The notes: generated from the sequence alone by a model not told the origin. Shown: positions 1,253-30,839, counted from the first letter of the stretch. The stretch: DNA of 64,000 bases from Corallococcus macrosporus DSM 14697 (GCF_002305895.1 NZ_CP022203.1:7164001-7228000); one strand, 5' to 3'. Translations and numbers: made by a program.

Positions 1253-2299
1253 TCAGTGCAGCGTGGAGGAGCGGGGGTCCTGCTCCTCCACGGTGGGCTC
1301 GGGCTCCTTGCCCCGGGCCACGCGCCGCCGCCACCGGAAGCGCGCCAGCTTCGAGCGCATGGCGGTGCTGGCGCTCTTGGCCGCGCCAGCCGTCTTCAGG
1401 GGCGGCTCCAGCGGCGCGGGCTCGTCGAAGCCACGCGCCCCCTTGGACTTCCCCTCCGCCGAGGCGTGCTCGAGGATGGCGTTGACTTCGCCGCCCAAGA
1501 TGAAGATGAGCCCGGAGAGGTAGAGCCACAGCAGCAGCACCATCACGCCGCCGATGGAGCCGTACGTGACGTTGTACTGGCCGAAGTGCTCCACGTACTG
1601 CGTGAAGCCCCAGGTGCTCGCCAGCCACAGGCCGGTGCCCAGCACGGAGCCGGGGGTGATGTACTTGAAGCGCTGCTTCACGTCCGGCAGCAGGTAGTAG
1701 CAGAGCGCCAGCACCAGCATCACCAGCGACGCGGTGAAGGGCCAGCGCAGCCAGGACCACACCAGGTGGAAGGCGTCCACGAGCTGCAGCTTCCCCGCCA
1801 GCCACAGCCCCAGCCGTCCGCCGAGCAGGAACACGGCGAAGGACAGCGGGATGAGCAGCGAGCCCATCACCGTCACCAGCATCGCCAGGCCCTGCGTCTT
1901 CCAGAGGGGCCGGGACTCCGTGACGTCGTAGGCCAGGTTGAGCGCGGTGCGCAGCGCGTTCACCCCGCGTGACGCGGACCACAGCGTGATGACCAGACCG
2001 GCCGTCAGCAGCTTGGGCTGGGGCTGGTTGACCAGGGACTCCAGGTGTCCGGTGATGAGGCCCAGCGCGTCGCCCGGCACCAGCGGGCGGACGCGGTCCA
2101 GCATCGCGTCCACCGCGCCCGGGGCGAACGGCAGGTACGCCACCAGCGTGACGAGGAAGAAGAGGAAGGGGAACAGCGAGAACAGCAGGTAGTACGAGAG
2201 CTGCGCCGCGATGTCGGTGACGCTGTCCTCCTGGAACTCCTTCACGAAGCGCCGGCAGAACTCGCGCCAGGACAAATGCTTGAGTCTGGGCAGCCGCAT
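1253..2299 (-). CDS. YihY/BrkB family inner-membrane protein
   Basis: A 348-aa protein with about six hydrophobic segments. The N-terminus carries the family hallmark in which an aromatic and polar helix (SVTDIAAQLSYYLLFSLFPFL) runs into the first membrane span. The C-terminal 60 residues are cytoplasmic, basic and Ala/Pro-rich. The family was once misnamed ribonuclease BN; its transport substrate is not established. The start at 2299 is supported by an AGGAGG-type ribosome site (GAGGAGGCGAGC) just upstream. A longer frame reaching 2383 lacks such support. Confidence 0.88.
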   Translation of the reverse strand: MRLPRLKHLSWREFCRRFVKEFQEDSVTDIAAQLSYYLLFSLFPFLFFLVTLVAYLPFAPGAVDAMLDRVRPLVPGDALGLITGHLESLVNQPQPKLLTAGLVITLWSASRGVNALRTALNLAYDVTESRPLWKTQGLAMLVTVMGSLLIPLSFAVFLLGGRLGLWLAGKLQLVDAFHLVWSWLRWPFTASLVMLVLALCYYLLPDVKQRFKYITPGSVLGTGLWLASTWGFTQYVEHFGQYNVTYGSIGGVMVLLLWLYLSGLIFILGGEVNAILEHASAEGKSKGARGFDEPAPLEPPLKTAGAAKSASTAMRSKLARFRWRRRVARGKEPEPTVEEQDPRSSTLH

Positions 2300-2421
2300 G
2301 CTCGCCTCCTCGCTCCGAGTCGTACCGGGGCACAGAAGGTGAAAACGGGCGCGCGCTTTGGCAGCAGGCGGCCGGCCGGGCACACGCTCCGTGGCTCGGC
2401 GGGTGGCGGGGCGCGGTGTCG

Positions 2422-3309
2422 TCAGGCGACGTTGGGCGGGAGGTATCTGCCCAGCAGTGGACGGAGGCTGCCGCGCACCTCGTCGGGGATGCGGCTGCGC
2501 TCGGTGCCAATGGCCAGGGCCAGCGCGGAGTCGCAGCGGCAGGTGGCGCGGGCTCCGGCGATGCGAGGCAGCGCGCGGCGGATGAGCGCGGCGCCGCTGG
2601 CGGTGACGGCCTTCCGGTGGTGGGAGATCAGCGCCAGCAGGTCGTCATGCGCCTCGCCCGGCGCGCGGGGCTGCCACGAGTCGTAGTCCGTGGGCAGCGC
2701 CACCATGGCGTAGTGGAGTTCCGCCTCCCGGGCGAGCCGGGCCTCGGGCATGCCCGTCATGCCCACCAGGTCTCCGCCCCAGGTGCGGTAGAGCATGCTC
2801 TCCGCGCGGGTGCTGAGGGACGGGCCCTCGATGCAGACGTAGGTGCCCTCGGTGTGGACGGTGGGCCCCAGCGGGTCCCTGGCCTCCGCGAGGACGTGGC
2901 GCAGGGTGCCGCAGAAGGGGCTGCCCAGGTCCACGTGGACGGCGACGTCGTCGTAGAAGGTGCAGGGGCGGCGGTAGGTCCGGTCGATGACCTGGTCCGG
3001 CACGGCGAGCTGGAGGGGCTGGATGTGCTCGCGCAGGCTGCCCACGGTGCCGGTGGCGAGGACGTGGGTGACGCCCAGCACCTTCAGCGCGTAGACGTTG
3101 GCGCGGTAGGGCGCGCGGGTGGCGTTGTAGACGTGGCCGGAGCCGTGGCGGGCGACGAAGGCGACGGAGACGCCATTGAGCTCGGTGGTGACGATGGGAC
3201 CCGCGTGAGGGCCGAAGGGCGTCTCGATGATGTGGGATTCGCCCTTGCCGGGGATGCCCAGCGCCTGGGCCAGCCCGGGGCTCCCGATGATGCCCACCCT
3301 GACAGCCAT
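2422..3309 (-). CDS. mtnP: S-methyl-5'-thioadenosine phosphorylase
   Basis: A 295-aa PNP/MTAP-family enzyme expected to split 5'-methylthioadenosine to adenine and 5-methylthioribose-1-phosphate in methionine salvage. Visible features are the N-terminal VGIIGSPGL strand, the phosphate-binding RHG at 54-56, the TEGTYVCIEGP loop at 153-163, the GMTGMPEA segment at 183-190 and TDYDSW at 207-212. Asp208 and Asp210 correspond to the human MTAP aspartates that select adenine, which argues against a 6-oxopurine phosphorylase. The start at 3309 has GAGGAGG upstream. The gene is divergent from the Cys-rich secreted protein, with a 10-bp inverted repeat in the shared promoter region. Confidence 0.9.
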   Translation of the reverse strand: MAVRVGIIGSPGLAQALGIPGKGESHIIETPFGPHAGPIVTTELNGVSVAFVARHGSGHVYNATRAPYRANVYALKVLGVTHVLATGTVGSLREHIQPLQLAVPDQVIDRTYRRPCTFYDDVAVHVDLGSPFCGTLRHVLAEARDPLGPTVHTEGTYVCIEGPSLSTRAESMLYRTWGGDLVGMTGMPEARLAREAELHYAMVALPTDYDSWQPRAPGEAHDDLLALISHHRKAVTASGAALIRRALPRIAGARATCRCDSALALAIGTERSRIPDEVRGSLRPLLGRYLPPNVA

Positions 3310-3333
3310 GTGCCTCCTCGTGGCGCGACCACC

Positions 3334-3366
3334 GCGCCAGGGGACCATAACGCGGCCCCCTGGCGC
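3334..3366. promoter_or_regulatory. 10-bp inverted repeat between divergent genes
   Basis: GCGCCAGGGG (3334-3343) is followed after 13 nt by its exact complement CCCCTGGCGC (3357-3366). It lies in the 93-bp gap between mtnP (minus) and the Cys-rich protein gene (plus). It could be a dyad operator controlling both genes or simply a GC-rich hairpin; the sequence alone cannot tell. Confidence 0.4.
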
Positions 3367-3402
3367 CGGAACCCCAGAAGACTGGTAGTTTTCGTAATCG
3401 CC

Positions 3403-4161
3403 ATGCGAGCCCTCCTGATTCTCGGCCTGACCCTCGCCGCCGGCCCCGCCGCGGCCGCCGTCCCTTCTGGCTGCCAGGAGGACTTCGGCACGTGCAAGGA
3501 GGACTGCTCCATCGAATTCGGGGGCAGCGGGCGCACCGTCGAGAAGCTCACCCACTGCCTGGCGGACTGTCAGGAGAACCTGGGCTTGTGCGCGGACCGG
3601 CACTCGTCGCTCAAGGGCCTGCCTTCAGGCGTGGTGGCGGACCCGCCGAGGCGGCGGAGGGGCAAGCGGCTGACGCGCGAGGAGGACCCCTTCGGGGACG
3701 GCGGCGCGCAGCCGACGCGCAGGCGCAAGTCCCGGGAGGAGGACCCGTTCGGGGATGAGCAGGGCTCCAACCGGAGGGATGGCTACCGCGCGTCGGAGTC
3801 CTCCGTGGCGGTGGAGCCCTCGCGCCCCGCACCAGAGCCCATTCCCCCGCCGCCATCCTCCGGTGTGGCGGTGGAGGCCACGCGGACCGGGTACCGGGCG
3901 ACTGAACCCGCGGCACCTCCGCCCCCGGCCCCGGCGGACCCGGCGTCCCTGGGGGACCTGGACTCGCCGGATGACGCGCCCACCCCCACCCCGCCCGCCG
4001 TCACCGCGAGCCCGGAGAAGGAGGACCCGCTGGTCGGCGACGACCTGCCGGAGGCGCCACCTCCGGCCGCGAAGAAGCCCGCGCCCAGCAAGTCCAGCCG
4101 GCCGGCGCTACCGCCCGAGCCCGAGTACGACATCTCCGACTGGGACCCGGACGGGGATTGA
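3403..4161 (+). CDS. Cys-rich, proline-rich secreted protein of unknown function
   Basis: A 252-aa protein with a clear Sec signal peptide (MRALLILGLTLAAGPAAAA). It is followed by a small six-Cys module spaced C-x6-C-x3-C then C-x3-C-x6-C, suggesting a disulfide-bonded helical hairpin. The rest (about residues 85-252) is low complexity, rich in Pro, Ala, Glu and Arg. It holds two copies of an REEDPFGD repeat, two copies of a GYR(A)-type motif and an acidic C-terminus. No enzyme motif is visible. The upstream in-frame extension to 2416 is the antisense of mtnP and was discarded. It converges on the trypsin-like protease with a 10-bp gap. Confidence 0.7.
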   Translation: MRALLILGLTLAAGPAAAAVPSGCQEDFGTCKEDCSIEFGGSGRTVEKLTHCLADCQENLGLCADRHSSLKGLPSGVVADPPRRRRGKRLTREEDPFGDGGAQPTRRRKSREEDPFGDEQGSNRRDGYRASESSVAVEPSRPAPEPIPPPPSSGVAVEATRTGYRATEPAAPPPPAPADPASLGDLDSPDDAPTPTPPAVTASPEKEDPLVGDDLPEAPPPAAKKPAPSKSSRPALPPEPEYDISDWDPDGD

Positions 4162-4171
4162 GCGGGGGCGC

Positions 4172-4975
4172 CTAGAAGTCGAAGGAGATGGCCTTGATGA
4201 ACGCGTCCACGCTGGCGTCGATACGGCGTCCGAAGTTCCGCTGGCACGGGTCAAAGCCGCACTTGAAAAGGTCGAAGTAGCTCCGGAAGCCCGTGTGCAT
4301 CGCGGCGACCCGGTGGACACCGCTCCCCATGTTTCGGGACCAGGGCCCGCCGCTCTGCCCGCCCGTCGTATCGATGTGCTCGGTCTCAATCCGATGGCCG
4401 TTGATTCCGGCCGCCCCGCTCATGCCACATTGGAACGTCGCCGGGCCGGGCGCGCCCGGGCAGGTATCGGCGGGATAGCCGAACATGTCGTAGGTGGCGG
4501 AGCCACTGTCGATGACGTAGCCCGTGAACATGGATGGCGCGGCGTGGCAGGGAAACGTATCCACGACGGCATAGTCCAGGGGCGAATCCAGTGCGCCGTG
4601 CGCGTACCCCGAAGGCACGCCGATGAGGATGTCGTTCGACGAGTTCGCGTCGTCGTTCCGGCAATCCACGCTCCCCAGCGGCAGGGACGTCCCGTTCTGC
4701 GCCGGGCCGAAGATGATGCGGTTCGTCGTCAGTCCATCTGGACGGCGGATGCAGTGCGCCGCGGTGACCAGCGTCCAGGGGCCGATGTACGAGCCCGTGC
4801 ACTGTCCACAGGAGCCGCCCGAGCAGACCGTCAGGCGAACGGTCGCGCGTCGCGGCTGCAGCATGGTGTCGACGACGCGCGTGCGACCATCACTCCATTC
4901 ATGACAAGCACCTCCGTCAGGACGCAGCGTTGATGCGCACGGCCCACGCGCCTTCCGTGGAGCGCCTGCCCTCAC
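4172..4975 (-). CDS. Trypsin-like (S1/V8-like) serine peptidase
   Basis: A 267-aa chymotrypsin-fold protease. The triad is visible as TAAHC (His), SPLDYAVV (Asp) and TTGGQSGGPW (Ser). CTGSYIGPWTLV before the His and paired cysteines are typical of bacterial secreted Glu-endopeptidase-like members. The only start in frame is GTG at 4975. The first 35 residues (MRAGAPRKARGPC...) are not a signal peptide, although the mature-like part from about residue 36 suggests secretion. Either export is non-canonical or the true N-terminus lies in another frame. N-terminal annotation is therefore uncertain. Confidence 0.75.
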   Translation of the reverse strand: MRAGAPRKARGPCASTLRPDGGACHEWSDGRTRVVDTMLQPRRATVRLTVCSGGSCGQCTGSYIGPWTLVTAAHCIRRPDGLTTNRIIFGPAQNGTSLPLGSVDCRNDDANSSNDILIGVPSGYAHGALDSPLDYAVVDTFPCHAAPSMFTGYVIDSGSATYDMFGYPADTCPGAPGPATFQCGMSGAAGINGHRIETEHIDTTGGQSGGPWSRNMGSGVHRVAAMHTGFRSYFDLFKCGFDPCQRNFGRRIDASVDAFIKAISFDF

Positions 4976-6597: not shown

Positions 6598-7575
6598 CTA
6601 TCCGACGCGCGAGGAGGCTGGAGGCCGCTCCGGAACGGCCGCTGCCGCCGCGGGCGGCCGGACGTGCGCGCCCTGGGTCAGTCGCACGCCCAGGAGCACG
6701 AGCACGCCGCCCACCGCAAGCTCCCAGTGCAGCGCCTCGTCCAGGAGGGCCCAGGCGGCCAGCGCGGTCGCCGCGGGCTGGAGGTTGGAGAACACCGCCA
6801 CCTTCGACGCCGGCACCCGCGACAGCGCGAAGTACCAGAGCAGGTACGCCACCACCGACGTGAGCAGGCCCAGGTAGACGATGGAGTACCGGGCCGCGGG
6901 GCTGGCCGCGAGCACCGCCTCCGGCCTCGCGAAGAACGGCGCCATCAACAGCATCATCAACGTGGAGGCCGTCATGCTCCACGCCGTCGCGCGAATCGGC
7001 CCGTGCACGGCGACGAACGGCCTGCCCTCCGTCGTGTACACCACCCACGACATCACCGCGCCCAGGATGAGCAGGTCACCCTGCAGCGAGCCGCTCGCGT
7101 CCACCAGCCCGCGCCCCAGCAGGAGCACCACCACGCCCGTGAACGCCGTGACGATGCCGCCCACCGCCCGGAGCGAGGCCCGCTCATGCCCCCGCCCCAG
7201 GCTCAGCAGGTATACGCCCAGCGGCGTCAGTGCATAGAGCAGCGCCGCGTGCGCCGCCGTGGACCGGGACAGGCCATGGAAGAAGAACACCTGGTTCACC
7301 GGCCCCGCCAGCAGGCCCAGCATGAGCACGCGTCCCCATTCCTTGCGCGGCGGCAGCCGGGGCCCGGGCAGGAAGCACAGCAACAGCGCGAACACCGTCC
7401 CGCTCAGCACGAAGCGCCACAGCACCACCGTGAGCGGCGGCAGCTCCGACATCGCGCGCTTTCCCGCCAGGTACGTGCCCGCGCTGATGAGGACCTGGAG
7501 GATGAGCCCGGCATAGACAGGGCCCAGGGACTGCGCGGAGGTGGACGTCAGGGGTCGAGCTGAAGGAGCGCCCAT
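6598..7575 (-). CDS. EamA/DMT-superfamily transporter
   Basis: A 325-aa inner-membrane protein with ten predicted hydrophobic helices arranged as two EamA repeats (about 20-150 and 165-300), as in drug/metabolite exporters such as RhtA or YdcZ relatives. Typical sequences are WRFVLSG in helix 2 and ALLDEALHW near the ninth helix. Its first codons overlap the 3' end of queG by 28 bp, suggesting translational coupling as the last gene of the adenosyltransferase-queG operon. The transported compound cannot be predicted. Confidence 0.85.
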   Translation of the reverse strand: MGAPSARPLTSTSAQSLGPVYAGLILQVLISAGTYLAGKRAMSELPPLTVVLWRFVLSGTVFALLLCFLPGPRLPPRKEWGRVLMLGLLAGPVNQVFFFHGLSRSTAAHAALLYALTPLGVYLLSLGRGHERASLRAVGGIVTAFTGVVVLLLGRGLVDASGSLQGDLLILGAVMSWVVYTTEGRPFVAVHGPIRATAWSMTASTLMMLLMAPFFARPEAVLAASPAARYSIVYLGLLTSVVAYLLWYFALSRVPASKVAVFSNLQPAATALAAWALLDEALHWELAVGGVLVLLGVRLTQGAHVRPPAAAAAVPERPPASSRVG

Positions 7576-8567
7576 TGCGCGGCGGTACGTACCAATTCGC
7601 TCGAATCGCCGCAGAGCTTTTCCAGCAACGGTTTCGCGTCCGCCTGCTTCGCCACGCCCAACGCATACACGGCGTTGCGGCGCAGTCCGTCATAGCGTGC
7701 GCGCGCCAGCGCGGTGCCAGGTATTAGGTGCTCATACTGTTCCACCGTGAGTCCCGCGAGCTCACGCACCCCCAACTCCGCCACGGCGCGAGGCGCGAAG
7801 CGCGGGTGCTCGGCGAACACCGGCCGGCGGTTCAGCGGACACACCTGCTGGCAGATGTCGCAGCCGAAAATCAGGTTGTCGAACTTGAGCCGGAACGCCT
7901 CCGGCACCTGCTGCTCGCGGTTCTCGATGGTCTGGTAGGACAGGCACGCGCGCGCGTCCACGCGGCCGTTGCCCACCAGCGCGCCGGTGGGGCACGACAC
8001 GAGGCAGCGGCGGCACGCGCCGCACCGGTCCGCCGCCGGGCCGGTGCCGTAGTCGTCCACCTCCACGTCCAGGACGAGCGTGGCCAGCAGCACCCAGGAG
8101 CCGTAGGGCTCGGTGATGAAGCAGCCGTTCTTCCCCACGTAGCCGAGCCCCGCGCGCGCCGCCCACACCTTCTCCATCAGCGGGCCGCTGTCCACGCCGC
8201 CGTAGGTGCCCAGCCCCGGGTACATCACGGTGAGCGCCTTGCGGAACGCCTTCATCCGGTCGCGCAGCGTGGAGTGGTAGTCCCGGCCACGCGCGTAGCG
8301 CGCGATGGGCGAGCCCACCGTCTCCGCGTCGTCGCGCCAGTAGTTGTTCGCGAAGGAGATGACCGTCCTCGCGCCGGGGAGCAGGACGGAGACGTCCAGC
8401 CGCTCGGCCGCCCGCTCGCCCATCCAGTCCATGTCCGCCGCGTAGCCCGCGGCCACCCAGGACAGCAGGAAGTCGGGCGGGATGGGCTCGGCGCGCGCGA
8501 ACCCCACCAGGTCGAAGCCGACCGAGCTGGCGAGGTCACGCAGATGGGCGGTGGGCAGAACAGTCAC
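7548..8567 (-). CDS. queG: Epoxyqueuosine reductase QueG
   Basis: A 339-aa iron-sulfur, cobalamin-dependent reductase that makes queuosine from epoxyqueuosine in tRNA anticodons. Family marks are YARGRDYHSTLRDRM near residue 90, the GKNGCFITEPYGSW segment, and two ferredoxin-like clusters, CGACRRCLVSCPTGAL and CDICQQVCPLN. A short HEAT-like C-terminus (LLEKLCGDSSELVRTAAQWALLQL) follows. The start is GTG at 8567. It sits 13 bp downstream of the cobalamin adenosyltransferase gene, a suggestive pairing because QueG needs a cobalamin cofactor. Confidence 0.92.
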   Translation of the reverse strand: MTVLPTAHLRDLASSVGFDLVGFARAEPIPPDFLLSWVAAGYAADMDWMGERAAERLDVSVLLPGARTVISFANNYWRDDAETVGSPIARYARGRDYHSTLRDRMKAFRKALTVMYPGLGTYGGVDSGPLMEKVWAARAGLGYVGKNGCFITEPYGSWVLLATLVLDVEVDDYGTGPAADRCGACRRCLVSCPTGALVGNGRVDARACLSYQTIENREQQVPEAFRLKFDNLIFGCDICQQVCPLNRRPVFAEHPRFAPRAVAELGVRELAGLTVEQYEHLIPGTALARARYDGLRRNAVYALGVAKQADAKPLLEKLCGDSSELVRTAAQWALLQLDP

Positions 8568-24492: not shown

Positions 24493-25203
24493 CTATCCCC
24501 ACCGGCGATGACGCGCCCGGAACAGGCCGTCATACATGCCCAGGAAGAGGTGCCCACCCAGCGCCAGTCCCTGCTCAATCTCGACCGCCGCCCCGGCGTC
24601 CGTCCCATAGGGCGCGTCGAGCTGCTGGTAGAAGCCCTCCGCGTGTTGCTCGTCGAGGTCCGCGTGCGTGGGGTAGTGCACCACCTCGCCCGCCCCGAGC
24701 CAGCCGCGCGCGACGATGCCGCGCCCCAGCTCCAGGGAGATGCCGCTGAACAGGTCCTCGATGATGCCGAACACGGCCAGCCCGGTGAGCGGCCCCTCGA
24801 ACGCGGAGATGCCCGTCAGCGCGACGTTGAAGGCACGCACCTCCGGCCACGGCACATGCTGCTCCACGCGGGCCGGGGCCACGCCCAGGCGCGAGAGGAG
24901 CAGCCGGAACGTGCGCTCATGCCCCTGCGCCAGCGCGCCGCGCCCGTGCTCGTCGAAGATGTTCTCCACCAGCGGCAACCGCTGGGCGGAAGTCGGCAGC
25001 CGGCTGGCGAGCATCGCCATGGGCCTGGGGAAGTGCGCCACCGCGGCGAGGAACTGGAGCTGCGTCTCGACGAAGTCCTCCCGCGAGAAGGAGCCCTCCC
25101 GCAGGGCGCGAAGATAGGGCAGCTCCAGCGCGCTCCACTCCGCCTTGAGACTGGCGATGTGCTGCCGCAGCTTCAGATTTCGGACGAGGGAAGGTGCACC
25201 CAT
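24493..25203 (-). CDS. Heme-oxygenase-like diiron protein (HDO, TenA/PqqC fold)
   Basis: A 236-aa all-helical protein with the iron-binding pattern of heme-oxygenase-like diiron oxidases such as UndA, BesC and Szn[10 protein letters not shown] (Glu and His near residues 80-87), a mid helix [16 protein letters not shown], and a late [13 protein letters not shown] helix give His, Asp and His. Known members cleave or oxidise fatty acids or amino acids using O2. Its start lies 31 bp inside the GNAT-like gene, making it third in the DUF3419 operon. The substrate is unknown; neighbouring lipid genes favour an acyl substrate. Confidence 0.75.
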
Positions 25204-26093
25204 GCTGGCGCTCGACTGGGAAAGGAGAGGTCCAGAGAATAGACGGTACACACCGAGTCCGGCGCGATACCCGCCGCTCGCAGCCAGTGGACATGGTCCT
25301 CCAGCCGCTCGTCGATGCTGAAGCAGGCCAGCGTCTCTCCGCCGAGCGCCGCCAGCTCCACACCGCAAGCACGAAGATACTCGCCCCAGCCGTGCGTCCA
25401 GGCCCCGGGAGGCGCCGCCAGATGGACCAGCGGCCATGGACGGCCCGTGGACAGACGCTGGAGGTCCTTGGCCCCCGCCGTGGAGCACCACCCGGCGCCC
25501 TCCAGCCGCCTGCCGGACGAAGGTCCCAGCCGGAGGCCCTCGCTCACGGGGCGCGGGGGGGCACGCCCTGTCTCCAGCGCCGCGAGCCGGGAAGGCGGGA
25601 CGAAGTAGAGCGCGAGCCGGCTGGCCGGGCGCCCCATCCGCAGAGGATTCCAGCCCCGGGCAATGCGCATCACGTCGCCCCGGGCCCCGCGCATCGCCGC
25701 GCCGTAGAGGAAGCGAATCCTGCGCAGCGGCGGAATCAGGAAGAGGTGCTTGAGCCCTTGCAGCAGGAGCCTCGTGGAGAGCCCGGAGCCCCGCGCGGGC
25801 TTCGCCAGCTTGAGGTCGCAGATGTAGAGCGCGGCCACCGTGCGAGCCCCATGGCCCACCGGGCGAAGCACCCCCGTCACCGACCCCAGCAACGTGTCGC
25901 CCCGAAGCGCCAGCAGGAAGTACGCCTCTCCCATGGAGGAGAAGAACGGGTGGTAGCCGGCCCCATGGTCGATGAAGAAGTGGTCCGCCCCATCCGCGAG
26001 CGGGTAGAGGATGTCGCGCTCCAGCTTCCGCAGCCGCTCGACATAGGGCCCGAGCGTGTCGGGCCGGACAACGACGAAACGCACGTCACTCAT
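25173..26093 (-). CDS. GNAT-like acyltransferase family protein
   Basis: A 306-aa protein whose first 170 residues resemble a GNAT fold: FVVVRPDTLGPYVERLRKLERDILYPL, an aromatic-rich AYFLLALRGDTLLGSVTGVLR core, then ALYICDLKLAKPARGSGLSTRLLLQGL as the CoA-loop equivalent. The C-terminal half (about 190-306) looks like a second, degenerate GNAT-like domain. The ATG overlaps the DUF3419 stop (ATGA). Coupling on both sides suggests it acts in series with the aminocarboxypropyltransferase-like and diiron proteins, perhaps as an N-acyltransferase. Confidence 0.62.
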   Translation of the reverse strand: MSDVRFVVVRPDTLGPYVERLRKLERDILYPLADGADHFFIDHGAGYHPFFSSMGEAYFLLALRGDTLLGSVTGVLRPVGHGARTVAALYICDLKLAKPARGSGLSTRLLLQGLKHLFLIPPLRRIRFLYGAAMRGARGDVMRIARGWNPLRMGRPASRLALYFVPPSRLAALETGRAPPRPVSEGLRLGPSSGRRLEGAGWCSTAGAKDLQRLSTGRPWPLVHLAAPPGAWTHGWGEYLRACGVELAALGGETLACFSIDERLEDHVHWLRAAGIAPDSVCTVYSLDLSFPSRAPAWVHLPSSEI

Positions 26094-27082
26094 GGGGCCT
26101 GGCGGGGCTGGCGGAAGCCGACCTCGATGCGCTCGTAGAACAAGCTCCGGTCCCTGGCCAGCAGCTCCGCGCCGAGCGCGTCATCGAAGGTGAAGGCGGG
26201 CTGGAAGAAGCGGCGGAGGTCCCGGCGGTTGTTGAGCTGGCGGAGGAGGATGGCGCATCCGGGCTTCGCCTCGCGCATGAGCACCGCCGCCCACTCCGCC
26301 ACGAGCGCGTCCTCCGACCAGTCGAAGATGTTGGAGAGCGAGATGACGTCGAAGCGGCCCAGCCGCGGCACGTCCGGCAGCGAGCCCTGGATGAGCGACA
26401 GCGCCACGGGCGCCTCGGCCCGCAGATACTCCGGCGCGTCCTCACGCAGGTACCCGCCGAGCAGCACATGCTGGAGGAAGGGATTGCGAGGGGCATCCTG
26501 CCGCTGGAGGCCGCGCTCGAAGACGGCCTGGAAATAGCCCGGGTAGGAGCCGGGCTCCGCGTGCTGGGTCGCGGCGGGGCCGAACATCGCGTTCAGCAAC
26601 GGCGCCGCCAGGGCCAGCTCGAAGGCCACGGGCCAGTAGGGCGACGCGAACCACCGGGCCAGCGCCGCCCGGCGCCGCGAGATGGAGGTGTCCGGCGCGA
26701 AGAAGGCCGCGAGCTCGTGCGCGGGCGCGACGAACTCCTCGATGAAGCGGCGGAGCGTGCGAAAGAGCCCCTCGAATTCGCCGCGCTGGTTCAGCGCCGT
26801 CACGGCGTCCGCCTCCACGCTGTAGTCCCTCAGTGGCAGGCGGCCGAGCCCCTCGGCCTTCTCCCGGACGTGCGCGAGCTGACGCGGATTGAAGTCGAAG
26901 CCCACCAGCTCCAGGTCTGGATGACGCCGCGCCAGCGTGAGGAGCGTGCAGCCTCCAGACGCCACCGTGAGCACGGCCCGCGCCTTCGTGCGTTCGACGA
27001 GCGCCAGCTCCAGCGCGGCATCCTCCCGGACGACGGCGAACTTCAAACGGTGAGACGGCGTCGAAACCGGAACAGGTTCCAT
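26090..27082 (-). CDS. DUF3419 / BtaA-like S-adenosylmethionine 3-amino-3-carboxypropyltransferase
   Basis: A 330-aa protein with the SAM-binding pattern of DUF3419. LTVASGGCTLLTLARR (38-53) and LVGFDFNPRQLAHV (59-72) correspond to the BtaA motifs for SAM binding, and FDVISLSNIFDWSED plus ILLRQLNN are typical of the C-terminal half. BtaA transfers the 3-amino-3-carboxypropyl group of SAM to diacylglycerol in betaine-lipid synthesis. No BtaB-type N-methyltransferase is adjacent, so a different acceptor or an unmethylated homoserine lipid is possible. It is first in its operon, only 26 bp from the divergent desaturase. Confidence 0.75.
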   Translation of the reverse strand: MEPVPVSTPSHRLKFAVVREDAALELALVERTKARAVLTVASGGCTLLTLARRHPDLELVGFDFNPRQLAHVREKAEGLGRLPLRDYSVEADAVTALNQRGEFEGLFRTLRRFIEEFVAPAHELAAFFAPDTSISRRRAALARWFASPYWPVAFELALAAPLLNAMFGPAATQHAEPGSYPGYFQAVFERGLQRQDAPRNPFLQHVLLGGYLREDAPEYLRAEAPVALSLIQGSLPDVPRLGRFDVISLSNIFDWSEDALVAEWAAVLMREAKPGCAILLRQLNNRRDLRRFFQPAFTFDDALGAELLARDRSLFYERIEVGFRQPRQAP

Positions 27083-27108
27083 GGCATGTTTCTACCTCGG
27101 AACCGCCC

Positions 27109-28041
27109 ATGCCGCTCGCGACAGAATCCCTCACGCCCTCGAAGTTGCGCGAACTGGAGCAGGTCGACGCGCGACACGTCCCACGGCTCGCGCTCTTCCT
27201 CGTGCTCTATCTGGGCGCGGCGGCGCTGTGCGTCGCGCTCGCGGGGCGGGACACCTCCGCGCCGGGCTGGATGGCCCGCGCCCTCCTGTACGTCATCGCC
27301 GCGGCCTCATTGCATGGCATCAGCCTGTTCACGCACGAGGCCGTCCATGGCGGGCTGGCGCGGCGGCCCTGGCTGAACCGGCTGGGCGGCATCGCCTGCG
27401 CGCTGCCGGTGCTCCAGAACTACGCTGCCTACAAGGTGTTGCACCTGAAGCACCACGCCGACCTGGGCGGGGGCAAGGACCCGGACCACTACGCCAACTA
27501 CACCGGCCGGCGCTGGCTGGAGTTGTTGATGCACATGGGCCGGCTGCTGCTCGGCTACCCCGCCTACATCACGATGATTCCCATCCTGGGCTGGCGGCAG
27601 GGAACGGCCGCCGAGCGGCGCTGGGTCGCCTTCGAGGTCGTCCTCGCCGGCGCCTGCGTGGCGGCCGCCGTGGCCTTCATCCCCTGGCAGGTGCTGCTCC
27701 ATGCCTGGGTGGTTCCCATGCTCATCCTCAACACCCTGGTGAACGTCCGGGGCATGAGCCAGCACACGTTCCTGCCGGAGAGCAGCCACCCGGTCCGGGG
27801 ATCGCGGACCATCCTGTCGAACCCGGTGACGCGCTTCTTCATGTGCAACGAGAACTACCACCTGGAGCACCACCTGTATCCCCGCGTGCCCTGGTACAAC
27901 CTGCCCGAGCTGCACCGGACGCTGCGCGCGGACCTCGTCGCCCAGGGGGCGCCCTTCATCCCCTCCTACTTCTCCTTTGTCCGAGGCGTCCTCTCCGGTT
28001 CCCTCATCCAAGGGACGAAGCCCGCCACGCCCGATGCCTGA
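27109..28041 (+). CDS. Membrane fatty-acid desaturase family protein
   Basis: A 310-aa integral membrane diiron enzyme with three His boxes: HEAVH (76-80), HLKHH (112-116) and NENYHLEHH (247-255). LYPRVPWYNLPELH follows, typical of the clade that contains small-molecule and acyl desaturases or hydroxylases. Four hydrophobic stretches surround the boxes. The stop overlaps the PAP2 start by 8 bp. The 26-bp divergent gap to the DUF3419 gene means promoters must lie inside the coding sequences or be shared. Confidence 0.87.
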   Translation: MPLATESLTPSKLRELEQVDARHVPRLALFLVLYLGAAALCVALAGRDTSAPGWMARALLYVIAAASLHGISLFTHEAVHGGLARRPWLNRLGGIACALPVLQNYAAYKVLHLKHHADLGGGKDPDHYANYTGRRWLELLMHMGRLLLGYPAYITMIPILGWRQGTAAERRWVAFEVVLAGACVAAAVAFIPWQVLLHAWVVPMLILNTLVNVRGMSQHTFLPESSHPVRGSRTILSNPVTRFFMCNENYHLEHHLYPRVPWYNLPELHRTLRADLVAQGAPFIPSYFSFVRGVLSGSLIQGTKPATPDA

Positions 28042-28879
28042 GCGGCCGTACCCGCACGAGCTCCTGCTGGCCGCGTTCGGACTCCTCCTGTCGTCCGCGC
28101 TGGCGTGGACCGCGGGCCTCAGCTCGCCCGTCACCCAGACGGTGGTTGGCGGCACGGTGCTGTTCATGGGGGCCACGGCGCTGCTGGCGCGCCTGGACGG
28201 CGTGGCCCACGTCTTCCGGGCGAGGCTGCTGCTCGCGTACGTCGCGACGTTCTTCTTCTACGCCTCCGTGAAGCAGACCGTCCCGGCGCTGGGGCTGTCG
28301 CCTCGCGACGCGTGGCTCCTCTCCGCGGACACAGCCCTGTTCGGCACCACGCCGGCCGCGTGGCTCCAGCGGTGGAGCACGCCCTGGGTCAACGAGCTCT
28401 TCAGCGCCAGCTACCTGGCGTTCCACGTCTACCTCCACCTCGCCATGGCCTGGGCGCTCGTGGGGCCGCGCGCGCGGGCCGAGCGGTTCTTCACGTCCAT
28501 CTTCTCCGCCTATGTCCCGGGCATCGTCGGCTACTACCTGCTGCCCGCCGTCGGTCCCACGGCGGCCTGGCCGGAGCTGTTCACCACCGCCATCGAGGGC
28601 GGCTGGCTCACCCGGCTCAATGCGTTCGTCGTGGCGAGCGGGTCCTCCACGTATGACCTCTTCCCCAGCCTGCACACGTACATCACGCTGGTGCTGCTCG
28701 ACCACGACCGGCGCCAGCACCCGCGGCGCTTCCGCCTGATGTTGCCCGTGGCCGTGGCCATCCTCATGTCCACGCTGATGCTGCGCTACCACTACGCCGT
28801 GGACCTGCTCGCGGGCGCGCTGTGGTTCCTGGCGTATCGCCTTGGCAAGGCCTGGTTTGGCCAGCCGTCCGACTCGTGA
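28034..28879 (+). CDS. PAP2-superfamily membrane phosphatase or phosphotransferase
   Basis: A 281-aa protein with six hydrophobic helices. FPSLHTYITLVLLDHDRR (from about 207) and LRYHYAVDLLAG (about 249-260) match the SLH and HYxxD boxes of the inositol-phosphoceramide-synthase-like PAP2 branch. That branch carries SLH rather than SGH and moves phospho-head-groups between lipids. The KX6RP box is not obvious. Translationally coupled to the desaturase, which supports lipid-linked chemistry. Confidence 0.8.
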   Translation: MPERPYPHELLLAAFGLLLSSALAWTAGLSSPVTQTVVGGTVLFMGATALLARLDGVAHVFRARLLLAYVATFFFYASVKQTVPALGLSPRDAWLLSADTALFGTTPAAWLQRWSTPWVNELFSASYLAFHVYLHLAMAWALVGPRARAERFFTSIFSAYVPGIVGYYLLPAVGPTAAWPELFTTAIEGGWLTRLNAFVVASGSSTYDLFPSLHTYITLVLLDHDRRQHPRRFRLMLPVAVAILMSTLMLRYHYAVDLLAGALWFLAYRLGKAWFGQPSDS

Positions 28880-28897
28880 AAGACTGACTGTCTTTCA
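28877..28897 (+). terminator. Intercistronic hairpin after the PAP2 gene
   Basis: TGAAAGAC (28877-28884) and GTCTTTCA (28890-28897) form a perfect 8-bp stem over TGACT, starting at the PAP2 stop codon. It lies 15 nt before the start of the NTF2-like gene. No T-run follows, so it is more likely an RNA-stability element or attenuator than a full terminator. Confidence 0.45.
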
Positions 28898-28912
28898 GGG
28901 GGCGTCCCGCAC

Positions 28913-29407
28913 ATGAGAGAGAAGGACACGCAGTACATCCTGGATTGGATTGCCATTCAGGAGCTGGTCGCGGAGTACGGGCAGGCCATCGACTTCGGCA
29001 AGGACACGGGTGACTGGAGCCGCTGGGTGAATGCCTTCACCCCGCAGGTGGTCGCGGACTACAGCCGGCTCTTCGGTGGCGAGCCCATCACCATCGCCCG
29101 CGAGGAGATGGGCAAGCTCGGGGGCGACGCCCTGGCCGCCTTCACCCGCGTCCAGCACGCCACGGCGAACACGGTGCGGACCCACTTCAAGAACGACACC
29201 GAGGCGCAGGTCATGGCCTATGCGGACGTGGCGCACTTCTTCACGGCCGGTGGTGTGCAGCAGGAGTGGACCGTGGTCATCCGCTACACGCACGACGTGG
29301 AGAAGACGTCCGAGGGCTGGCGCATCCGCCGCGTCATGCTGGACCCCATCCACTTCCGGGGCAACCCGGTGGGCCTGGAGCTCGTGAAGGGCAAGCGCCT
29401 CGTCTGA
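28913..29407 (+). CDS. NTF2-like / SnoaL-like protein
   Basis: A 164-aa protein of the nuclear-transport-factor-2 fold. It has an N-terminal helix pair (DWIAIQELVAEYGQAIDFGKDTGDWSRWVNAFTPQVVADYS) and a curved sheet ending in GWRIRRVMLDPIHFRGN. Such proteins serve as small dehydratases, isomerases or binding chambers in secondary metabolism. It is third on the plus side of the divergent lipid-like cluster, 33 bp after the PAP2 gene, with AGGGGG upstream. No catalytic residues could be singled out. Confidence 0.75.
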   Translation: MREKDTQYILDWIAIQELVAEYGQAIDFGKDTGDWSRWVNAFTPQVVADYSRLFGGEPITIAREEMGKLGGDALAAFTRVQHATANTVRTHFKNDTEAQVMAYADVAHFFTAGGVQQEWTVVIRYTHDVEKTSEGWRIRRVMLDPIHFRGNPVGLELVKGKRLV

Positions 29408-29411
29408 GGCG

Positions 29412-30677
29412 TCAATCCGGCGCGCGCGTCGCGGCCTCGGCTCGCAACGCGCCCGGAAGCCGCCAGGCCACCACCAGGGTGGCCAGCGTTCCGCCAGCCC
29501 CCGCCACCAGCAGCGTCACCGGGGCTGACGTCGCGTCGAGCAACAGCCCCCCGGCGACGTAGGACAGCCCCGCGGCCACGCCGATGGCCCCATAGAGATT
29601 GCCAAACACCCGGCCCCGCATCCCGGCCGGCACCCACCGCTGGATGAGGGTGTGGCAGGCGACATCCATGGCCGCGATGCCCACGCCTCGCACGGCTTGC
29701 ATCGCGAGCGCCGCGGAGACGGCCCAGGCCAGGCCGGTCAGCAGGTTGCCCACGCTGCTCACCGCGAAGCCCAGCACCAGCATCACCGGCATCACCGCGC
29801 CCGCGCCCAGGCGCGCCATCAGCGCGTAGCCCGCGACCAGCCCCAGCCCCACCGCGCCCAGGAGCAGCCCCACCGCGGAGTCCCCGGCCTGGAAGGTGTC
29901 CTTCGCGAGCAGCACCAGGGCCACGTCGTCCACGCCGTTGAAGGCCACCACGGCGCAGAAGCCCAGGGCGACGACGCGGGCCACCCGGGCACGCCAGAGA
30001 TAGAGCAACCCGTCCCGCGCCTGCCGGAACAAGGACACGGGCGGCGCGTCCTTCTCCCGCGCCGGTGACACGGAAGGCAGGGCCCGTAACAGCACCGCGG
30101 ACAGGAGGAAGGACGCCGCGTCCACCAGCAGCACGCCGCGGAGCCCCACGAGCGGGAACATCGCCGCGGCGAGCAACGGCCCCAGCGCCTCGGCCGCCTG
30201 GGTCCCGAATCCCACGCTGGCGTTCGCCGCCTCCAGGTCCTCGCCGCGCACCAGGGCGGGCACCACCGCCCGGGAGGCCGGCTGGAACACCTGTCCGACA
30301 ATCGCCCTCGCGGCCACCAGCACCAGCAGCACCGGCAGCGGCGGCAGGGTGAAGGCGATGAGCGCCAGCAGCGCGCCCTGGACCACCTCGCACAGCAGCA
30401 TCACCCGCTTGAGGTCGAACCGGTCGCTGATGGCGCCCGTGAGCGGCCCCAGCAAGGCGGGTGCGAAGTCTCCCACGAGGAGCAGCACTGACACCGCCAG
30501 CGCCTGCCCCGTCTGCTCCGCGACGTACAACATGAGCGCCACCAGGCTGAGCGAGTCCCCCGTGAAGGAGATGACTCGCGCGCCCCAGAGGGCCCGGAAC
30601 GCCGGGTGGCGTCGCAAGAGCCACAGGGCGCCCGTCCCGCGTCCGCTGGCGTCTGAATCACTTGCTGGAACCGACAT
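29412..30677 (-). CDS. MFS transporter (enterobactin-exporter-like, MFS_3)
   Basis: A 421-aa major facilitator with about twelve hydrophobic helices. The family loop between helices 2 and 3 appears as GPLTGAISDRFDLKRVML, and a matching one as RWVPAGMRGRVFGNLYGAIGVAAG in the second half. FRALWGARVISFTGDSLS is the usual MFS_3 start. The start at 30677 was preferred because the longer frame overlaps the divergent S41 gene. It converges with the NTF2-like gene (4-bp gap) and might export a product of that cluster. Confidence 0.87.
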   Translation of the reverse strand: MSVPASDSDASGRGTGALWLLRRHPAFRALWGARVISFTGDSLSLVALMLYVAEQTGQALAVSVLLLVGDFAPALLGPLTGAISDRFDLKRVMLLCEVVQGALLALIAFTLPPLPVLLVLVAARAIVGQVFQPASRAVVPALVRGEDLEAANASVGFGTQAAEALGPLLAAAMFPLVGLRGVLLVDAASFLLSAVLLRALPSVSPAREKDAPPVSLFRQARDGLLYLWRARVARVVALGFCAVVAFNGVDDVALVLLAKDTFQAGDSAVGLLLGAVGLGLVAGYALMARLGAGAVMPVMLVLGFAVSSVGNLLTGLAWAVSAALAMQAVRGVGIAAMDVACHTLIQRWVPAGMRGRVFGNLYGAIGVAAGLSYVAGGLLLDATSAPVTLLVAGAGGTLATLVVAWRLPGALRAEAATRAPD

Positions 30678-30839
30678 GCGCCGCGAGTCTCCCCTGGGGA
30701 ATGATGGAGCGGCGGCACCGTAGAGGAGACGCGTGGCGGGCTTCAATTCCCCCCGGGCGCCGCCGATATACGAGACAGGCGCCCACCGTTCCTTCGCGGG
30801 CGACCGCCTCACCACCACACCCCGAAAGAGAGCACTGAC

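Follow-up and report, generated by a model that had tools for sequence, protein, structure and literature searches.

Three genes on the minus strand of a divergent gene cluster in Corallococcus macrosporus DSM 14697, encoding a BtaA-like protein (DUF3419), a GNAT-like protein and an HDO-family protein, form a unit of their own. The cluster occupies positions 24493 to 29407 of the window, by which we mean the whole 64,000-nucleotide stretch analyzed (NZ_CP022203.1:7164001-7228000), and also contains a plus-strand operon for a desaturase (DES), a PAP2-type enzyme and an NTF2-like protein. The original prediction had joined all six genes into one unit; we find that the core consists of three. The module, its co-inheritance and its conserved catalytic features are the best-supported elements of the analysis; substrates, order of reactions and product are inferred. 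We tentatively favor the reading, nearly an even call, that the trio makes an N-acylated amphiphile derived from S-adenosylmethionine (SAM), which DES and PAP2 would tailor in one lineage.

When public genomes were scanned for the BtaA-like protein, 37 loci from other genomes were obtained, against which all six proteins were compared by tblastn. The BtaA-like, GNAT-like and HDO genes occur together in nearly all of these loci, as a rule in single copy, and the exceptions mostly coincide with contig ends. Because the minus-strand trio is together in nearly all 37 loci and a five-gene block is kept in 30 genomes, the gene arrangement goes beyond chance. The order of the core genes varies (BtaA-like/GNAT/HDO, HDO/BtaA-like/GNAT or BtaA-like/HDO/GNAT), and at one locus the HDO gene is divergent. 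The hosts comprise Myxococcota, a Planctomycetota metagenome-assembled genome (MAG), Kistimonas, an Oceanospirillales MAG, a Rickettsiaceae (Rickettsiales) MAG and a plasmid of Mycobacterium riyadhense, in which the order DUF3419-HDO-GNAT is followed by a gene for an MmpL-type transporter. Among 293 genomes surveyed from the order of Kistimonas, five more carried the triad, one of them with the GNAT gene on the opposite strand; of 217 genomes from the order to which the Rickettsiaceae MAG belongs, only one had it, namely, the MAG itself. The genes around the triad differ between loci and only occasionally include exporters, and among the neighborhoods compared we found no other biosynthetic gene that recurs beside it and no dedicated acceptor gene within the core. 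Since the neighbors otherwise vary between loci, the three genes appear sufficient. The minus-strand trio is probably a stand-alone pathway that has spread horizontally, and its product probably benefits bacteria of many lifestyles, given that the carriers range from myxobacteria and Gammaproteobacteria to a Rickettsiales MAG and a Mycobacterium plasmid.

Co-inheritance was assessed in 195 Myxococcota genomes, with a strong BtaA-like or GNAT match defined by an E value of <1e-100. Strong BtaA-like matches were found in 38 genomes and strong GNAT matches in 37, the two occurring in the same genomes, adjacent to each other and in one copy each; at the sole locus with a BtaA-like gene but no strong GNAT match (in G161), a contig end interrupts the sequence. 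In one genome (G159), the HDO gene lies away from the other two, on another contig of the same genome (E, 6e-117). Across 26 divergent loci, the distance matrices of BtaA-like and GNAT correlated with an r of 0.86, those of GNAT and HDO with 0.60, and those of BtaA-like and HDO with 0.55; the observed correlation was reached in 0, 0, and 2 of 2000 permutations, respectively. Such a matrix correlation owes part of its strength to common species history and alone is no proof of function.

Some individual triads and solitary homologs deserve mention. A locus labeled Comamonas sp. KCTC 72670 (L036; BNCN01000001.1) carries a Myxococcus-like triad with a BtaA-like protein that is 83% identical, so that the label looks wrong. 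At another (L069, positions 2073 to 4556), the reading frames of all three genes are broken, with an internal TGA in the GNAT gene, which reflects either a pseudogene or assembly errors; locus L067 holds an intact close relative. Solitary HDO homologs with no adjoining BtaA-like or GNAT gene occur in three genomes (L173, a second copy in G013; L174 in G028; L175 in G116), and their neighborhoods, when examined, gave no clear pathway clue.

The plus-strand operon is distributed differently. The DES subfamily (E<=1e-30) is present in exactly 30 of the 195 Myxococcota genomes, each of which has the core, and close PAP2 homologs (E<1e-60) are found in the same 30, i.e., all 27 genomes of the genus Myxococcus plus three others (G141, G142, and G144). 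In one further genus (g33), only 2 of 7 genomes, G141 and G142, combine core, desaturase and PAP2. The divergent five-gene arrangement is kept in all 30, and DES and PAP2 adjoin the triad in the loci examined, but the core often lacks the pair, which is missing beside cores outside the Myxococcus genus and the three further genomes. DES and PAP2 are thus tied to the core but the core is not tied to them, and we therefore consider the pair a lineage add-on rather than part of the core. The NTF2-like gene has homologs in few Myxococcus-genus loci only, is not conserved with the core and probably stands outside the module.

For the original prediction, this means that a link between the operons holds in this lineage, as DES and PAP2 never occur without the core in the 195 Myxococcota genomes, whereas in other lineages the core occurs without them. 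Of the co-occurrence in other genomes that was to be checked for all six families, that of the trio is seen, DES and PAP2 are limited to one lineage, and NTF2 is rare. Separation of the two operons in relatives, which had been named as counting against a link, is found in part, that is, beyond the Myxococcus genus and the three Myxococcota genomes. A single six-gene unit for synthesis and remodeling of a membrane amino-lipid would account for the five-gene block and for the confinement of close DES and PAP2 homologs to genomes that have it. It is at odds, however, with cores that lack DES, PAP2 and NTF2 in other lineages, and the absence of NTF2 from most relatives already excludes that gene, making the six-gene unit highly improbable.

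DES (27109 to 28041, plus strand; PF00487, 5.8e-49) is a membrane enzyme of the FA_desaturase type with the His boxes HEAVHG, HLKHH and HLEHH, whose histidines are invariant in 31 loci. Its gene overlaps by 8 bp that of the PAP2_3-type lipid phosphatase/phosphotransferase (28034 to 28879, plus strand; PF14378, 7.7e-15, 55.6 bits versus a Pfam cut-off of 27), in which the motifs FPSLH and RYHYA-D, of the S-x-H and H-x3-D types, are invariant in 31 loci. After a gap of 33 bp follows the SnoaL_4/NTF2-like gene (28913 to 29407, plus strand; PF13577, 6e-16).

Core gene 1 (26090 to 27082, minus strand; PF11899, 2.3e-18) encodes the BtaA-like protein, which scores 67 bits against a curated Pfam cut-off of 28.2 and is a probable SAM-dependent 3-amino-3-carboxypropyl transferase. 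The motif ASGGC (residues 41 to 45), D63, SN..DW (250 to 255) and the N-terminal KFAVVRED are invariant or nearly so in 23 to 37 homologs. With BtaA/BTA1, the SAM:diacylglycerol 3-amino-3-carboxypropyl transferase, it shares the Pfam family, the ASGGC SAM motif and SN..DW. It differs in its length of ~330 residues, being devoid of the DUF3419 segment at profile positions ~76 to 128, in having no BtaB next to it, and in its linkage to double-GNAT and HDO genes. Two divergent triad members (L168 and L070) still possess the 76-to-128 region, which suggests that it was lost in the main group. The gene lies among GNAT, HDO, desaturase, PAP2, SnoaL, MFS and DsbH-like genes, and a search of the genome found it to be the only one for a DUF3419 protein. 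Betaine-lipid synthesis was rejected on the grounds that BtaB is missing at the locus and the genome has a single DUF3419 protein. Searching the PDB with the profile of the BtaA-like protein produced no match that could be used, and the only chemistry that one review gives for the family is that of BtaA in betaine lipid (PMC10491745).

Alternatively, the BtaA-like protein might cyclize SAM to azetidine-2-carboxylate or homoserine lactone, which the double-GNAT protein would N-acylate and the HDO would tailor, yielding an N-acyl signal-like molecule. SAM-cyclizing enzymes with a methyltransferase fold are known (PMC10491745), and the shortened DUF3419 and the core's want of a dedicated acceptor gene would both fit. 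Set against this, the family's characterized representative, BtaA, transfers its group to a hydroxyl, and we consider cyclization quite improbable.

DUF3419 genes also occur in other settings. One on a Roseinatronobacter plasmid (L071, positions 3835 to 4935; NZ_CP121116.1) lies in a tight run with genes for a UbiA prenyltransferase, a PEP/pyruvate-binding protein, two hypothetical proteins and an AMP-binding enzyme. This run may represent another, uncharacterized pathway. Another BtaA-family gene, on a Streptomyces plasmid (L072, positions 7482 to 8411; NZ_CP098484.1), is located between DoxX-like and DUF2071 genes with a methyltransferase gene nearby; the triad of L168, too, is followed by a DoxX gene.

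The strongest mechanistic clue comes from core gene 2 (25173 to 26093, minus strand). Its product matches PF00583 below threshold (E, 0.0019; 18.9 bits versus a cut-off of 20.7), and its GNAT assignment is supported by structure prediction. The AlphaFold2 (AF2) model (pLDDT, 89.7) has a double-GNAT fold, and all 50 matches listed by VIA-align are N-myristoyltransferases (NMTs; Z, 17.3 to 16.5 over 252 to 263 residues at 3.5 to 4.0 Å). The top match (Z, 17.3; 260 residues aligned; 3.8 Å) places residues 1 to 306 of the model onto residues 153 to 496 of HsNMT, and Foldseek also retrieved a histidine acetyltransferase (HisAT). In the residue alignment of the model only, the last residue, I306, falls on Q496 of HsNMT1 and on the C-terminal end of other NMTs. 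The C terminus reads [ST]-x-x-[IL] in 42 of 43 homologs, the exception being a frameshifted copy, and lies exactly at the model end in 40 of 43; even highly divergent homologs keep it (e.g., TYEI, TNEI, TNEV, and SSEI). In contrast, the same loci have 36 distinct last-three-residue combinations for HDO and 34 for the BtaA-like protein.

NMT uses its own C-terminal carboxylate as the catalytic base (PMC7048800), a mechanism that, according to a 2016 review, sets NMT apart as unique in the GNAT superfamily (PMC4964394). HisAT, which acetylates a free amino acid, does not use it (PMC12219266). Based on the full-length match of the model to the NMT fold and the conserved exact C terminus, the GNAT-like protein would most likely N-acylate an amino acid with its own C-terminal carboxylate as the base. 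This NMT-like, double-GNAT nature of the middle gene is new relative to the original prediction, although NMT-type predicted structures have been reported in bacteria and archaea, without a function (PMC12219266). The protein resembles eukaryotic NMT, an enzyme of animals and fungi, in its predicted full-length double-GNAT fold, in the alignment of its C-terminal residue with the catalytic one and in the conservation of the exact C terminus, and differs in its ~10% identity, its bacterial biosynthetic operon and its substrate, presumably a small amino-acid derivative.

An OlsB-type enzyme was rejected, as PF13444 was not detected in the GNAT-like protein itself at E<=0.1, nor in three divergent homologs at E<=1. 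With OlsB/GlsB/GluB, the GNAT-like protein would share the N-acylation of an amino acid to give an aminolipid, but it is a double-GNAT, and the six genes include no OlsA-type O-acyltransferase. Another comparison is NpuN, a tandem GNAT by which lysine in nostolysamides is fatty-acylated (PMC13060382); both are bacterial tandem GNATs of biosynthetic pathways that use acyl-coenzyme As (acyl-CoAs), including fatty ones, a use that is predicted for the protein studied here. NpuN, however, has a peptide substrate, and side-chain catalytic residues have been proposed for it instead of the C terminus.

Core gene 3 (24493 to 25203, minus strand; PF14518, 9e-18) encodes the HDO, a heme-oxygenase-like dimetal oxidase. 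The closest solved folds to its AF2 model (pLDDT, 93.4) are CADD (Z, 26.1), HrmI (23.5), BesC (23.0) and UndA (21.2), along with PqqC and FlcD. The 3H/3C ligands E85, H95, E149, H180 and D184 are invariant and H187 is present in 33 of 34 homologs; they line up with the ligand positions of CADD. Both these metal ligands and the SAM motif ASGGC are conserved; their lack had been named as counting against the original prediction. The protein shares the predicted fold and the complete 3H/3C set with CADD/PabS, HrmI, BesC, UndA and FlcD. It departs from the family in its E-x9-H spacing (E85/H95), an extra invariant H176 and its association with BtaA-like and GNAT genes. A self-sacrificing para-aminobenzoate synthase like CADD/PabS was rejected (NCBIfam TIGR04305, 21.4 bits versus a cut-off of 200); the position of the sacrificial tyrosine of CADD, Tyr27, is L31 here in the alignment, next to an invariant Y30. 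The 4C ligand set of SznF was likewise rejected, since in the alignment, the only evidence used, no additional Glu is conserved where this set would require one.

Taken together, these features would be consistent with the following route. The BtaA-like protein would transfer the 3-amino-3-carboxypropyl (ACP) group from SAM to an acceptor, either a common metabolite or a lipid and, by analogy with BtaA, at a hydroxyl, leaving a free alpha-amine. The double-GNAT protein may then acylate this ACP-derived amine from acyl-CoA with its C-terminal carboxylate as the base, as in NMT. Before or after this step, the 3H/3C dimetal HDO would oxidize the intermediate by desaturation, decarboxylation or C-C cleavage. 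The product would be an N-acylated amphiphile, exported in some lineages, to which the divergent desaturase/PAP2 operon of the genus Myxococcus and of G141, G142 and G144 may add tailoring or head-group exchange. Exporter genes adjoining triads, for HlyD/EmrB-type MFS proteins (EmrAB type; Kistimonas and LUC14), MmpL (Mycobacterium) and an AcrB-type RND protein (G464), fit an amphiphilic product. An unusual SAM-derived, amino-lipid-like product other than betaine lipid, as originally proposed, is therefore plausible, not proven. More doubtful is the fuller claim that a mobile, so far undescribed trio produces SAM-derived lipo-amino acids of a new class via the C-terminal-carboxylate mechanism of NMT; no described DUF3419-HDO-GNAT pathway was found in the open literature searched, which excludes most subscription journals.

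Several observations weigh against an N-acylated amphiphile. The BtaA-like protein is without the 76-to-128 segment, so its acceptor may be a non-lipid. The fold and ligands of the HDO do not predict its reaction, its correlation with the BtaA-like protein is modest, and in some triads it is divergent. The conserved GNAT C terminus could be a binding motif instead and does not predict the acyl chain length, as double-GNATs include acetyltransferases such as HisAT. Finally, exporters flank only few triads.

A possible but unlikely alternative is that the product of the module is a small amino-acid metabolite that is secreted, such as a metallophore or antimetabolite. The BtaA-like protein would form an O- or N-aminocarboxypropyl compound, the HDO would oxidize it, and the GNAT would attach a short acyl group that serves maturation or self-protection; rhizobitoxine-type vinyl ethers of homoserine offer a comparison for desaturation by the HDO. 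The exporter genes beside some triads could serve such a metabolite, but amphiphiles are frequent substrates of MmpL and EmrAB pumps. Known HDOs act on fatty or amino acids (PMC13108848), and a free amino acid is the substrate that HisAT, a double-GNAT, acetylates (PMC12219266). On the other hand, the GNAT looks like an NMT-type enzyme, and the known enzymes of this type use long acyl chains; the lineage add-on genes encode lipid-type enzymes, and the triad has no other recurrent biosynthetic neighbor.

If the N-acylated amphiphile is indeed the product, the BtaA family has a role outside betaine lipids, HDO enzymes gain a new biosynthetic context, and a bacterial enzyme may share the unusual self-carboxylate catalysis of NMT. 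With only three genes, the module is amenable to testing in a single expression host.

The host genome is a single contig of 8,973,512 bases with Myxococcus and Pyxidicoccus species as close relatives. All six open reading frames of the original prediction were borne out by a sequence check, with strands, overlaps and gaps as described, as were the family assignments, by Pfam for five of the six proteins and by structure prediction for the GNAT-like protein. The DUF3419 and GNAT-like genes overlap by 4 bp and the GNAT-like and HDO genes by 31 bp. The starts of the operons are separated by a 26-bp intergenic region (27083 to 27108), the length of which differs among relatives. Comparison of relatives for a conserved operator in this region revealed only a short inverted repeat, GGTTCC-N18-GGAACC (27075 to 27104), across the divergent start region, which is shared by the closest relatives and not by more distant ones. 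Convergent with the SnoaL gene is an MFS transporter gene (29412 to 30680, minus strand), missing in some relatives and near the block in others.

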